In this document: piece by piece, positions 33,217 to 39,522 of the stretch
Layout: each line of letters begins with the position of its first letter
How positions within the stretch are numbered: position 1 is the first letter of the stretch
Assembly: GCA_005954745.1 (NCBI GenBank)
Contig: CP040678.1
Span: forward strand, 62,001-126,000
Direction: 5' to 3'
Length of the DNA: 64,000 nt
DNA from: Halostella pelagica
Lineage (GTDB): Archaea; Halobacteriota; Halobacteria; Halobacteriales; Natronoarchaeaceae
Notes under the pieces: model-generated
The model's database searches: none
Seen by the model: the letters and a program-made list of their open reading frames with translations, nothing else
Told to the model about the DNA's origin: nothing
Made by a program: the position numbers and the translations under genes

Positions 33217-33770
33217 TTACGACCCGTTGCCGTTCCCGTTGTTGCCGTTCCCGTTGTTTCCGTTGCCGTTCCCGTTGTTTCCGTTGCCATTGTTCCCGTT
33301 TCCGTTTCCGGGACCGCCGTCGTTAGCTCCGTCCGCAGTTTCGTCTTCTTCCTCTTCGTCTTCTTCCTCTTCCTCAACTTCCTCCTCTTCGTCTTCTTCA
33401 TCTACTTCGTCTTCTTCCTCTTCCTCATCTTCCTCCTCTTTTTCATCTTCGTCGTTACCGCGGTCCGCAGGCGGCCCACGGTCGTCGTCATCGTCCGGAC
33501 CCGCGTGACTCGGCGGACCTTGATCCGTTTCGTTGTCGTCACCGTCGGGGCCGCGGTCTTCGGGCGGGCCGCGTTCCGTTTCGTTCTCGTCACTGTCCGG
33601 GCCACGGTCCTCGGGCGGGCCTCGATCCGTTTCGTTGTCGTCACCGTCGGGGCCGCGGTCTTCAGGCGGGCCGCGTTCCGTTTCGTTCTCGTCGGGACCG
33701 CGGTCCTCGGGCGGGCCGCGTTCAGTTTCGTTGTCGCCGTCCGGGCCCGCGTGGCTCGGCGGGCCCGTCT
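33217..33770. repeat. Coding tandem repeats of the surface protein gene
   Basis: Four to five degenerate units of about 36-45 bases encoding ERGPPEDRGPD-type repeats (about 33490-33770), then a GAA/GAG run (33340-33455) and GGAAACGG-type units encoding NGNGNN (33220-33310). Units differ by point changes and small in-frame length changes. Confidence 0.7.
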
Positions 33771-34278
33771 GACCGGGCGCGTTACTGGGGTTGTTTGACA
33801 CGACGAAGTCGGCGATCAGGAGTCCGCGCGGGCCGTCGGTGTCGCTGCTGTTTAGCTCCCCCATGAAGCTCGTCAGGTAGAGGCCGAAGTTCTTCTGCTC
33901 GTACCCCTGTTCGTCATCCCCGCCAGCGACGAGCGTCGCCTCGGTAGACGCGGACGTGTCGTCGACGGTGGCCGTGACGCTGACGTTCACCGTCTCGGAC
34001 GGGGCCGGCAACTCGACTGTTCCGTTCGTGATCCCGTAGTCGCCCGCTCCGCCGTACGTGGCGTTGTCGTCGGTGACTGCGACCGACACCGTTCCGTTAT
34101 CCACGTCGTCTCCCGTGACGGTCACGGTAGCTGTGCCATCGCTGTTTTGCGCGACATCGACGGAGAGATCCGTGTTCGCCGCGGCCGCGACTCCGCCCGC
34201 AGCCATAGCGGGTGCGACCATCGATACCACCAGCGCGACGCCGACCGCGAGCGCCGATAGCTTTCGTATCTGACTCAT
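33217..34278 (-). CDS. Secreted low-complexity cell-surface protein with acidic and Pro/Gly repeats
   Basis: A 353-residue exported protein. It has a Sec signal peptide (MSQIRKLSALAVGVALVVSM, cleavage near AMAA). A beta-rich N-terminal domain (30-150) is followed by a tandem repeat region (about 195-275) of units like ERGPPEDRGPDG, then a Glu/Asp run (about 285-325) and a final NGNGNN repeat. There is no membrane anchor. The repeat DNA also yields an artefactual plus-strand reading. Function unknown; adhesion, extracellular matrix or ion binding are possible. The start ATG at 34278 directly precedes the signal peptide. Confidence 0.82.
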   Translation of the reverse strand: MSQIRKLSALAVGVALVVSMVAPAMAAGGVAAAANTDLSVDVAQNSDGTATVTVTGDDVDNGTVSVAVTDDNATYGGAGDYGITNGTVELPAPSETVNVSVTATVDDTSASTEATLVAGGDDEQGYEQKNFGLYLTSFMGELNSSDTDGPRGLLIADFVVSNNPSNAPGQTGPPSHAGPDGDNETERGPPEDRGPDENETERGPPEDRGPDGDDNETDRGPPEDRGPDSDENETERGPPEDRGPDGDDNETDQGPPSHAGPDDDDDRGPPADRGNDEDEKEEEDEEEEEDEVDEEDEEEEVEEEEEDEEEEDETADGANDGGPGNGNGNNGNGNNGNGNGNNGNGNNGNGNGS

Positions 34279-34487
34279 TTCACTCCGAGAATGACCGGTA
34301 CTGCGCATAAACCCCGTTTCCCGTTCAGTTCGTTCAATAACTCGATAGAGGGGGACAGAACGTTTTAGAGCGTTCAAAAACATACCTGAGAGTTTAAAAT
34401 CCGACTAATTGGGCGGTGGTGGGACGGTCGACCCAGTTTCAGGGTGTGCGAATTACGGTGCCGTCGTCACCGCACAGCACGCGTCTG

Positions 34488-34566: not shown

Positions 34567-35865
34567 TCACTCGCTTCGGTTCGTGTTCGACGAGTCGTCC
34601 GGCCGGTAGCGGTGACACGTGACGGCGCAGCCGTCGGATCTGTGTTGCGCCGGTCGCTCACGCTCGCAGACGCTCGGAAACGTCTCCGCGAGCCGCTCCG
34701 ACGCGGCGCTCGCATCGCCGTCAGCGAACGCCGTGAGCGCCTCCGATAGCGACCGCTCAGCCCGTTCGTTGGCGAGTTCCTGCGCCACGCCGTACTCCTC
34801 GCGAACGGCCGCCGCGACTGCGGCCGGGGACGGTGTTTCGTCGTCGCCGCCGAGGCGCTCGCGGACCGATTCGAGGCCGATGTCGCCGTTCCGGAGGCCG
34901 ACGCGGAGCGCGAACACCGACTGGAAGGTCGACTGGTCGATATCGAGGTCGTCGGGCGGGATGACCGCCTGACAGCGGGTGTGGAAGCGGCAGCCGTCGG
35001 GCGGCGAGGCGGGGTCGGGAACCTCGCCGTCCAGTTCGGCGTCTCCGAGTTGCTCGTGTGGGTCTGGGTCGGGAATCGCCGCGAGGAGCGCGCGCGTGTA
35101 GGGGTGTTTCGGGTCGTCGAACAGACTCTCCGTCGGACCGCGTTCGACGAGTTCGCCCAGATACATCACCGCGACCCGGTCGCAGAGTCGCTCGACGACG
35201 CTCATGTCGTGGCTGATGAGCAAGATGGCGAGGTCGAAGGCTTCCTGAAGGTCCTGAACCAGAGCGAGTATCTCCGCCTGAACGGAAACGTCGAGCGCGC
35301 TCACGGGTTCGTCCAGTACGAGTACGTCCGGGTTCAGCGACAGCGCCCGGGCGAGCGCGGCCCGCTGTTTCTGCCCGCCGGACAGTTCGTGCGGGTAGCG
35401 CTCGCGGTCGTCCGCGGCGAGGCCGACGACTTCCAGCAGCGATTCGACGCGCTCGCGCCGCCGATCCGCGTCGTCGAGGCCGTGAGCGACCATCGGTTCG
35501 GCGACGGACTCGCCGATAGTCATTCGCGGGTCGAAACTCGAACCGGGGTCCTGAAACACTATCTGGACTCGCCGTCTGAAGCGCTTTCGCTGGGTCCGAG
35601 ATTGGTCTGCGATGTCTTGCCCGGCGACCGTCACCGATCCAGCCGTGGGTGATTCGAGCGAGAGCACCGTCCGCGCGACCGTCGACTTGCCGCAGCCGGA
35701 TTCGCCGACCAGTCCGAGCGTCTCCCCGCGCCGGAGGTCGAAGGAGACGCCGTCTACCGCCCGGACGCGACTCGTCTCGCGGTTCAACCACCCGCTCCGG
35801 ACGGGGTAGTGCTTTTCGAGGCCGCGGACGGACAGAAGCGCCGACGAGTCGGTGGCGTCACTCAT
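34567..35865 (-). CDS. dppF: Dipeptide/oligopeptide ABC transporter ATPase (DppF/OppF type)
   Basis: One of two ATPases powering a peptide (or nickel-chelate) importer. The 432-residue protein has Walker [11 protein letters not shown]-loop FQDP, signature LSGGQKQR and Walker B VLVLDEP. The Cys cluster CRFHTRC and later Cys residues near the end are typical of this family, but they are spread over an about 115-residue C-terminal extension. It overlaps dppD by eight bases, so it is in the operon dppC-dppD-dppF. No substrate-binding protein is encoded nearby. Confidence 0.9.
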
Positions 35866-36949
35866 CGTCGCTCACCCCCAGCGACGACGCCTCGCCCGTC
35901 GACCCCGCGTCGCGCTCCCCGTTCGGATCGGCTCCGTCCATCGTATCCGACTCGCTCGCGTCCTCCCGGAGCGCGGACGGGTCGCGCCCGTCGCCGTAGT
36001 ACACGCACGACGCCGTGTGGTCGTCCCCGTCGACCGCTTCCAGAGGGGGCTGTCCGTCCGTACTGCACTCCTCGACCGCGTGCGGGCAGCGCGGATGGAA
36101 CCGGCATCCGGACGGCGGGTCCGTCGGGTCCGGGAACGACCCGTCGATCGGTTTCGAATCCCGGCCGCGCCGCGGGAGACAGTCAAGCAACGCGCGGGTG
36201 TACGGGTGTGCCGGACGGTCGAAGATGTCGACGACGTCGCCTCGCTCCATCACCTTCCCGGCGTAGAGTACGACGACCCGGTCCGCGATCTGAGCGACGA
36301 CGCCGAGGTCGTGTGTGACGAACACGATAGCCATCCCGTGTTCGTCCTGAAGGTCCTGGAGCAGTCGTAGGATGCCGGCCTGCGTCGTCACGTCGACCGC
36401 CGTCGTCGGTTCGTCGGCGACCAGCACGTCGGGGTCCGACGCGAGCGCCATCGCGATGACGGCCCGCTGTTTCATGCCGCCGGAGAACTCGTGGGGGTAC
36501 TCGTCGACTCGCTCCGCCGGGTTCGGGATCCCCACCCGGTCGAGCAGGCGCACCGCGCGTCGCCGCGCGTCCGACCGGGACACATCGCGGTGAATCCGGA
36601 TCGACTCGACGAGTTGCTGTCCGACGGTGTAGACCGGATCGAGCGCGCCCTGTGGGTTCTGGAACACGTGGGCGATCCGGTCGCCTCTGACCGACCGGAG
36701 TTCGCGTTCGGACGCGGCCAGCAGGTCCTGCCCGTCGAACCGGATCGTCCCGTCCAACTTCGCCGGCGGCGACGGAACGAGACGGGTGAACGACTCGCAA
36801 GCGACGGTTTTCCCGGACCCGCTCTCGCCGACCAGACAGACCGTCTCCCCTCGGCGAACGTCCACGTCGAACCCGTCGAGGGCCGTGACGGTGCCGCGGT
36901 CGGTGTCGAAGGTGACTGAAAGGTCAGACACCGAGAGCAGCGGGGCCAT
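35858..36949 (-). CDS. dppD: Dipeptide/oligopeptide ABC transporter ATPase (DppD/OppD type)
   Basis: The second ATPase of the importer. The 363-residue protein has Walker A GESGSGKT, signature FSGGMKQR, Walker B VLVADEPTT and the family Cys motif CRFHPRCPHAVEEC. The start codon follows the dppC stop without a gap (36949/36950) and the end overlaps dppF, so translation is coupled. Peptide specificity is inferred from the family; nickel import is an alternative. Confidence 0.92.
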   Translation of the reverse strand: MAPLLSVSDLSVTFDTDRGTVTALDGFDVDVRRGETVCLVGESGSGKTVACESFTRLVPSPPAKLDGTIRFDGQDLLAASERELRSVRGDRIAHVFQNPQGALDPVYTVGQQLVESIRIHRDVSRSDARRRAVRLLDRVGIPNPAERVDEYPHEFSGGMKQRAVIAMALASDPDVLVADEPTTAVDVTTQAGILRLLQDLQDEHGMAIVFVTHDLGVVAQIADRVVVLYAGKVMERGDVVDIFDRPAHPYTRALLDCLPRRGRDSKPIDGSFPDPTDPPSGCRFHPRCPHAVEECSTDGQPPLEAVDGDDHTASCVYYGDGRDPSALREDASESDTMDGADPNGERDAGSTGEASSLGVSDDE

Positions 36950-38140
36950 CTACGTCTCACCCCGCGGGTCGAGAACGTCTCGAAGCGTGTCCCCGACGAC
37001 GTTGAGCGCGATCACGGTCGAGGAGAGCAGAACGACCGGGAACAGCCAGACCCACCACTTCGCCATCGGCGACAGCGCCGCAAGCGGTGGCATCCCGCCT
37101 GCCGTCCTGAACCCGTTGCGGATCGTCTGTCCGAACGACGGGTACCACCGTCCGATGTCGCCGAGGCTGAGAAACGTGATCGCCGCCTCGATCAGGATCA
37201 GTTGCGGTACCTTCTGGGTAGCGCCGACCAGCACCGTGTTCGACACGTTCGGGAGAACGTGTCGTCGGAGGACGGTGAGATGGCCGACGCCGGCGCTTCT
37301 GGCCGCCTCGATGTACCCCTCCTCCCGACGCTGTAACGTTTCGCTCCGAACGAGTCGGGCCATGCTTCCCCAGCTTAACAGACTGAACACGACGGCGAGC
37401 AACAGCAAACTCCGCCCGTAGATGAAGATCAGGATCACGTAGATGACGAAGGCCGGAACCGACTGCTGGACGTCGACGTACCCCATCAGTAGGGTGTCGA
37501 CCCACCCGCCGACGTAGCCCGCGACGACGCCGACGGCCGTGGCGAGCGGCACCATGATCACCGTGGCGATCACGGCCATCTGAAGGCTCGTCCGCAGGCC
37601 CCAGAGGAGGAGCGTGTGCATGCTGTATCCCCGGTGAGCCGTACCGAGCGGGTAGTTAAGCGTCCCTCGACAGAACTCCTCGCCGCCGGACGTGACGACC
37701 GGCCCGATGCAGTCGTCCCCGGCCGGTGCAGTGATGAACGCCGGTGGCTGGTGTTCGATGTACAGGTTGAGTTGCGCCCGCTCGACCAGTATCGGGGCCA
37801 ACAGTGCGAGACTGACCACGACAGCGAGATAGCCGAGACAGACGACGGCGACCCTGTTGGACGCGAACCGGTCCCAGTAGCGGCGAGTCCGCGCCGGGTC
37901 CCGGACCAGCGGCGGAACGACGATGAACGCGAGCACGACGAGGCCCGCCCGGTACACCCAGGTCAGTCGGGACGGGAACATGAGAACGGCGTCGCCGTGT
38001 TCCCCGTAGTGCAGGCGGAGCGCCAGGAGGGCACCGAGCGAGAGGACCAGTCCGACGAACTGCCACGGGACCGACCACCCTCCGTCGCGGCTCTCCCAGT
38101 TGATCGACTCTATCGGGGGCGAATCGTTCTCGGAACTCAT
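36950..38140 (-). CDS. dppC: ABC transporter permease (DppC/OppC type)
   Basis: A 396-residue permease with about seven membrane segments. Three extra N-terminal hydrophobic stretches precede the transporter core. The ATPase-contact loop reads GYIEAARSAGVGHLTVLRRHVLPN. The large extracytoplasmic loop with two Cys (about 160-190) is long for DppC. It is first in the reverse-strand operon; its partner permease dppB is divergent across the tandem repeat region. Confidence 0.9.
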   Translation of the reverse strand: MSSENDSPPIESINWESRDGGWSVPWQFVGLVLSLGALLALRLHYGEHGDAVLMFPSRLTWVYRAGLVVLAFIVVPPLVRDPARTRRYWDRFASNRVAVVCLGYLAVVVSLALLAPILVERAQLNLYIEHQPPAFITAPAGDDCIGPVVTSGGEEFCRGTLNYPLGTAHRGYSMHTLLLWGLRTSLQMAVIATVIMVPLATAVGVVAGYVGGWVDTLLMGYVDVQQSVPAFVIYVILIFIYGRSLLLLAVVFSLLSWGSMARLVRSETLQRREEGYIEAARSAGVGHLTVLRRHVLPNVSNTVLVGATQKVPQLILIEAAITFLSLGDIGRWYPSFGQTIRNGFRTAGGMPPLAALSPMAKWWVWLFPVVLLSSTVIALNVVGDTLRDVLDPRGET

Positions 38141-38565
38141 GCGACGGTATACCCCTGAGACCGACCGGAGAACGGCCGAGTAGCGCCTGATCGAAATGCG
38201 CGTTGTTGGATGGCGAACGACCGGACCGAGTACGGTTGGATGGCGAACGACTGGCCGGAGTACAGTTGGATGGCGGACGACTGGCCGGAGTACAGTTGGA
38301 TGGCGGACGACTGGCCGGAGTACAGTTGGATGGCGGACGACTGGCCGGAGTACAGTTGGATGGCGGACGACTGGCCGGAGTACAGTTGGATGGCGGACGA
38401 CTGGACGGCGTTCGGGTGTTGACTGTGGAGGGGGGTCATCGTGGATGATTTCGGGTTCTGGCGGCAGTTATGCGGTGACTATGGTTATGTTAGCATTTCT
38501 CCACGAATCATTCATTAATTTTTTGTATTCTCTCCCTCACACTCGATCCGTCAGAGCCCTCCACA
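38141..38565. promoter_or_regulatory. Divergent dppC/dppB intergenic region
   Basis: 425 bases without a supported gene. About half is the 30-bp tandem repeat. The 3' part (38470-38530) is the most AT-rich stretch around, with ATTAATTTTTTGTAT at 38515-38529 as a likely TATA region about 40 bases before dppB. The dppC promoter must lie between the repeat and 38140. Confidence 0.6.
38206..38415. repeat. 30-bp tandem repeat, seven units
   Basis: Seven head-to-tail 30-base units; units 3-6 (38266-38385) are identical and the outer units diverge. Each unit begins TTGGATGGCGGACGACTGG and ends CCGGAGTACAG. As 30 is a multiple of three, several frames on both strands stay open across the array, giving apparent proteins such as a W-M-A-D-D-W-P-E-Y-S repeat. 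There is no spacer variation as in CRISPR. Near-identity implies recent expansion, so copy number should vary between strains. Confidence 0.95.
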
Positions 38566-39522
38566 ATGCCGCCCTGGAAACACGTCACGAAACGAGTCCT
38601 CTTCGCAGCGTTCGCCATGTATCTCGTCGTTTCGGTTACCTTCGGCCTCGTCGCGTTGACTGAGGACCCGAACGAGGCTCGGGTCGCCCATCAAGCCACC
38701 GAGGAGGCGAGTCCGGGTCAGGAGGAAGAAGCGGTCGAGGAAGCCCTCAGCGACTACCGGGAACGGAACAACCTGGACGACCCGATCACGGAGCGATACG
38801 TCCGCTGGGTGGTCGGCATCGCGACGTTAGACTGGGGGTATTCGACCACGCAGAACGCGCCCGTCACGGACGTGATACAGCGAACGCTTCCCGCGACAAT
38901 CGCGTACGTCCTGCCGGCGATGCTGTTCGCACTCGTTGGGGGTGTCGGACTCGGCGTGTTCTCAGCGATGAACGACGGGACGGTCATCGAGCGCTTCTCG
39001 ACCGGCGGGCTCTCGCTCGCGTACGGCGTCCCGAACTTCTGGTGGGCGCTCGTGATACCGATGGTCGCGCCGCGGTTTGTCGGCGACGCGCTGTCTTCTA
39101 TCCCCGAGTTCCAAACGATCGTCTTGCCGGCCGGCATCCTGGGCACGAGTCTCATGGCCGCCCAGCTCCGGTACGCGCGGGCGGAGTCGAACGAGTACGT
39201 CAACAGGGAGTTCGTTAAGCTTGTCCGCGCGAAAGGCGCCTCGAACGTCCGCGTTGGCCGCCATGTCCTCCGGAACGCGGCGCTCCCGTTGTTCTCGCTG
39301 TTTTTCGTCGAACTGCTGGGCGTCCTCGTCGTGAACGTCTTCGTCCTCGAACAGATCCTCCCGATCGGGGGGATCGGTGCCGTCGGTCTCCGGGCGATCA
39401 ACGACCGCGACATGGCGCTCATCATCGGCGTCGCGATAGTCACCGCCTTCGCGGGTATCGTCGGTAGCCTCGTTCAGGACCTCGCACACCTCTCTCTGGA
39501 CCCGCGGGTCGAGGCGGACTGA
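38566..39522 (+). CDS. dppB: ABC transporter permease (DppB/OppB type)
   Basis: A 318-residue permease with six membrane segments. The ATPase-contact loop is VKLVRAKGASNVRVGRHVLRN. A Glu-rich stretch (about 40-65) lies in the first periplasmic loop. It is transcribed away from dppC-D-F, whereas these families usually have B and C adjacent on one strand. It starts MPPWKHVTK after an AT-rich promoter. It most likely pairs with the reverse-strand DppC. Confidence 0.9.
   Translation: MPPWKHVTKRVLFAAFAMYLVVSVTFGLVALTEDPNEARVAHQATEEASPGQEEEAVEEALSDYRERNNLDDPITERYVRWVVGIATLDWGYSTTQNAPVTDVIQRTLPATIAYVLPAMLFALVGGVGLGVFSAMNDGTVIERFSTGGLSLAYGVPNFWWALVIPMVAPRFVGDALSSIPEFQTIVLPAGILGTSLMAAQLRYARAESNEYVNREFVKLVRAKGASNVRVGRHVLRNAALPLFSLFFVELLGVLVVNVFVLEQILPIGGIGAVGLRAINDRDMALIIGVAIVTAFAGIVGSLVQDLAHLSLDPRVEAD

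Follow-up and report, generated by a model that had tools for sequence, protein, structure and literature searches.

Intergenic minisatellites, or VNTR loci, are known from prokaryotic genomes as head-to-tail arrays of near-identical 10–100 bp units, which have a homogeneous interior and are confined to one lineage. In Mycobacterium tuberculosis, tandem repeats have been described in the promoters of dop, lpdA and cysG (PMC12817950). The transcript architecture of haloarchaea is known from Haloferax volcanii, in which 72% of the protein-coding transcripts are leaderless and the remaining leaders are broadly distributed in length, and the same study argues that control via structured leaders is untypical of haloarchaea (PMC4983044).

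The array described here, which lies in a haloarchaeal genome between two divergently transcribed permease genes (Table 1), has the properties of a minisatellite, as its units of 30 bp are arranged head to tail at high identity, and it is placed outside the protein-coding genes, in the dppC/dppB spacer, where no frame has Pfam or homologue support. The units are contiguous and are not split by unique spacers as CRISPR repeats are.

Table 1. Position of the array and of the neighbouring genes and putative elements; coordinates are those of the window, the whole 64-kb stretch of DNA that was analysed
Feature	Position	Strand	Basis or remark
dppC-like ABC transporter permease	36950..38140	-	BPD_transp_1 and OppC_N; heads the dppC-dppD-dppF run
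Open frame of 100 codons through the array, possible weak leader ORF	38137..38439	-	Start at the GATGACCC block
Putative 5' leader of the dppC transcript, array included	38141..38480	-	Inferred
Tandem array, seven 30-bp units	38205..38414	.	Consensus GTTGGATGGCGGACGACTGGCCGGAGTACA
Open frame of 70 codons, MADDWPEYSW repeats	38210..38422	+	No support as a gene
AT-rich (60–70%) stretch, putative (bi)directional archaeal promoter of dppB and dppC	38481..38535	.	AT content, conservation
dppB-like ABC transporter permease	38566..39522	+	Divergent from dppC

A homogeneous array in one lineage

The preliminary description of this DNA had reported seven 30-bp units, four of them identical, in the 425 bp between dppC and dppB, with several frames open on both strands, and all of these observations are borne out. 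The spacer extends between the ATG codons of dppC (38140, − strand) and dppB (38566, + strand), and the unit is open in all six frames. When the units are aligned in register, units 3 to 6 (38265-38384) are identical in sequence, unit 2 is 1 base off these, unit 1 shows 4 differences from unit 2, and the 4 differing bases of unit 7 all fall within its last third. Tandem Repeats Finder places the array at 38205-38408 with a period of 30, 6.8 copies, 96% matches, no indels and a score of 359. This is the top score of the window, and only one array in 464 kb of the same genome, a 297-bp coding repeat, scores higher, so the array is not due to chance. Here, 'dpp' is a family-level name that does not imply a substrate, because the NCBIfam scores fall short of the equivalog cut-offs. 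Across 34567-39522 of the window, dppB is split off and transcribed away from dppC-dppD-dppF, and a divergent dppB/dppC pair is found in 28 of the 29 haloarchaeal loci with a detected dppC, the present locus included.

The background of such arrays was sampled in 464 kb of the array's own genome and in 400 kb of two congeners (G002 and G003). Most arrays of at least 2.5 copies in the 464 kb are within genes for low-complexity proteins, and a few short, less regular ones look noncoding; two arrays of this genome (at 486 and 5602 of L074) lie within no ORF of at least 100 codons. The 400 kb from the congeners contain about three array places. Among the noncoding arrays of the sample, the dpp array is the most homogeneous, and no non-genic array of like homogeneity and copy number was found in the 464 kb or the 400 kb. 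Elsewhere in the window, a 388-aa signal-peptide-like protein (33217-34383, − strand) carries several nested repeats, namely units of 51 bp (DRGPPEDRGP...), a tract of acidic residues (Glu/Asp) and a tail rich in Gly and Asn.

The unit is present in seven copies in the 3.94-Mb genome, all inside the array, and none occurs elsewhere in it at up to 3 mismatches. The 391 other genomes of the order that were searched contain no second array of the unit, and the 392 genomes together hold, beyond the array, just two scattered single sites at 2–3 mismatches. Viral contigs, plasmids and phages were without a match, hence an origin from a mobile element was rejected. A 25-mer of the unit recurs with 2 mismatches within a lipoprotein-like gene of the congener G004 (L057:1501-1525), where it reads QSSAI on the strand of that gene, the same as the − frame of the array. 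The array's genome has a 58% identical homologue of the lipoprotein-like gene, yet no copy of the unit (up to 3 mismatches) outside the array, so that the match is treated as chance and an origin from this gene was discarded.

The congeners G002 and G003 keep the same divergent dppB/dppC pair (DppB 71–74% identical), and their spacers of about 165 bp contain an AT-rich element and an ATGACCC block, both conserved, and no array. The array is therefore lineage-specific among the genomes examined, a single one for each species, which supports the earlier proposal that units have multiplied in the region between the two divergent genes. As the interior units are identical and the array is absent from the two congeners, this expansion would also appear to be recent. 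Furthermore, fixed codons of dppB and dppC lie at a distance of 612 here, whereas the 27 other divergent pairs have a median distance of 399 (computed by hand from the measured distances), and the array alone could explain the excess length, because subtracting its 210 bp leaves 402. The dppB/dppC spacer of another haloarchaeon (G170, L045) contains an 18-bp × 2.3 repeat, TGGAGTACGACCGCCCGA, upstream of the dppB homologue.

Short-read assembly is known to cope poorly with short identical repeats, and the array might in principle be an assembly artefact, either inflated or given in a wrong copy number. However, it is just 210 bp long, its edge units are distinct, the contig that holds it measures 3.2 Mb and is one of 4 in the genome, and collapse is a commoner error than expansion, so that an artefact is very unlikely.

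The promoter-like element and the putative dppC leader

The AT content of the spacer is maximal at 38481-38540, where it reaches 60–70%, and is 25–45% in the array. Part of this AT-rich stretch, TTCATTAATTTTTTGTATT, aligns with the two congeners as well as with two relatives at a greater distance. It belongs to the only AT-rich, conserved promoter-like element of the spacer, which lies wholly outside the array on its dppB side, and no AT-rich or TATA-like stretch is present 25–30 bp upstream of the dppC ATG. Because of this arrangement, dppC is likely transcribed from the element on the dppB side, which would make the array part of the dppC leader. The suggestion that the array serves as a spacer separating two promoters is not supported by the position of the element. 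A dppC leader of more than 300 nt, the length that this arrangement would imply, would be unusual. A scan for sigma-70 promoters and terminators, a method ill-suited to archaea, returned nothing.

The dppC-sense strand of the array folds worse than 100 of 100 shuffles (z = +2.96), and RNA of the opposite (+) strand folds better than nearly all shuffles (z = −2.88), but seven copies are folded together in this comparison and both z-scores amount to a single 30-mer counted many times. Since whatever one unit contributes is magnified by its repeats in this way, no meaning is attached to the strong structure on the + strand. An Rfam search of the spacer gave no match, and no inverted repeats were found when they were searched for as binding sites. 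An operator array of phased sites was also rejected, as inverted repeats are absent and the unit is found nowhere else in the genome within 3 mismatches.

By analogy with M. tuberculosis, the array may act as a copy-number-variable regulatory tract, in which the gain or loss of units would shift the expression of dppC-D-F, and perhaps of dppB, between cells. Its identical interior units are a substrate for slippage, it is positioned between the promoter-like element and a transporter gene, and the M. tuberculosis promoter repeats of about 54–58 bp are variable within populations and have been proposed as an expression switch (PMC12817950). Nevertheless, the array is downstream of the putative promoter and not inside it, and the congeners are without the array, which means that such a switch is not conserved. 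Overall, we regard this role as unlikely.

Coding potential of the array

The preliminary description had pointed to a frame of 70 codons on the + strand, starting at 38210, and to a Trp/Tyr/Asp-rich repeat peptide as its product. The frame itself is confirmed, and the features that would suit a young, acidic small protein are a GC3 of 0.91, a pI of 4.05 and a codon score that equals the median of 210-nt gene stretches. Yet the codon evidence effectively comes from one 10-codon unit, and 17% of the noncoding 30-mers of the same genome have a frame with at least an equal codon score. In addition, no homologue of the peptide was found among 194 further genomes of the order and it has no Pfam match, the frame is without an upstream AT-rich promoter, and the substitutions from unit to unit are nearly all amino-acid-changing in this frame. 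Matches of the peptide to phage repeat proteins, mainly those with pentapeptide repeats, are of low identity and were judged compositional. With neither homologues nor a codon usage that sets it apart from noncoding DNA, the array does not resemble a protein-coding repeat gene, and we consider a small protein encoded on the + strand highly improbable.

The frame on the − strand (38439 to 38137) has its stop in an ATGA that overlaps the dppC start, and is the better placed of the two coding ideas, although a weak one, because ATGA overlaps are established sites of termination-reinitiation in H. volcanii (PMC6728339). As a leader ORF, it would be entered by ribosomes at GATGACCC and read through the repeats in frame, followed by reinitiation on dppC, and a unit length that is a multiple of three would preserve the coupling. 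The start block is present in one congener with 13 of 14 bases identical, while the other has AATGACCC, and both congeners have, from that ATG onwards, a frame of about 21 codons with its stop across the dppC start; the dppC-sense strand is also unusually unstructured. On the other hand, the congeners use a different frame from the present one, and a more distant relative has no such frame. In codon usage, the frame described here scores 0.04 bits per codon versus about 0.5 for genes in comparable scoring, the pI of the product is 10.1 though the proteome is acidic, and the ATGA overlap was spotted after the fact. A translated leader ORF is therefore improbable. The resemblance to the translational coupling of H. 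volcanii (PMC6728339) is the ATGA with which an open frame overlaps the dppC start; the difference is that the upstream frame is without gene support here and is not conserved as a reading frame.

A variable copy number and a leader ORF could be combined in an archaeal contingency locus, in which 30-bp units would be gained or lost in frame within the dppC leader and peptide import would thereby be tuned differently in individual cells, possibly via a leader ORF that is translated and coupled to dppC. We think it quite improbable that the array works in this way.

Origin of the array and relation to known repeat loci

The array is probably a lineage-specific minisatellite in the putative dppC leader, one that is likely to be near-neutral and would owe its growth to slippage or unequal recombination. 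In the proposed sequence of events, a segment of about 30 bp in the leader of the dppC-D-F operon would have been duplicated first, and subsequently multiplied via replication slippage or unequal homologous recombination, which would leave the interior units homogeneous and the edge units divergent. Growth of this kind is suggested because the interior units are identical and the edges divergent, as would be expected. Being located downstream of the putative promoter on the dppC side, the array probably lengthens an unstructured leader from about 100 nt to about 300 nt or more, and any specific function that it has is probably slight or absent. Should its copy number vary, the likeliest effect would be a mild change in the stability or translation of the dppC-D-F mRNA.

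Several observations weigh against the minisatellite account. The array is unusual for its genome, given the sampled background, and a unit of 30 bp, which corresponds to about three helical turns and is a multiple of three, is also compatible with a reading frame or with binding sites in phase. Moreover, no convincing seed for the unit is found in the flanks or in the leaders of relatives (best p = 0.046 of 16 tests), and an origin from either was rejected.

As a minisatellite, the array would be an ordinary member of its class with a clear empty-site comparison. It differs from the prokaryotic minisatellites and VNTR loci in that its host is haloarchaeal and in that it is known from one copy number in one genome. 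A second short, homogeneous intergenic array is present in a homologous haloarchaeal dpp operon, that of Halomicrococcus gelatinilyticus GSLN9 (CP100465.1), where a perfect 36-bp × 3.3 array directly follows the dppC stop (L104:1431-1548). Its unit is unrelated and it sits 3' of dppC, which makes it an independent event and indicates that such arrays arise independently at homologous loci.

If the copy number proved variable and tied to dpp expression, the locus would be an archaeal case of a nutrient transporter subject to phase variation by tandem repeats, and a variable locus of this kind would be easy to score in populations. With the promoter repeats of M. tuberculosis (PMC12817950), the array shares tandem units shortly upstream of a gene and a possible effect on expression. 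At lpdA and cysG, the units are 54–58 bp long and lie just upstream of leaderless promoters, and their copy-number variation has been measured (PMC12817950), whereas the haloarchaeal units are 30 bp long and are probably located in a leader, downstream of the promoter.
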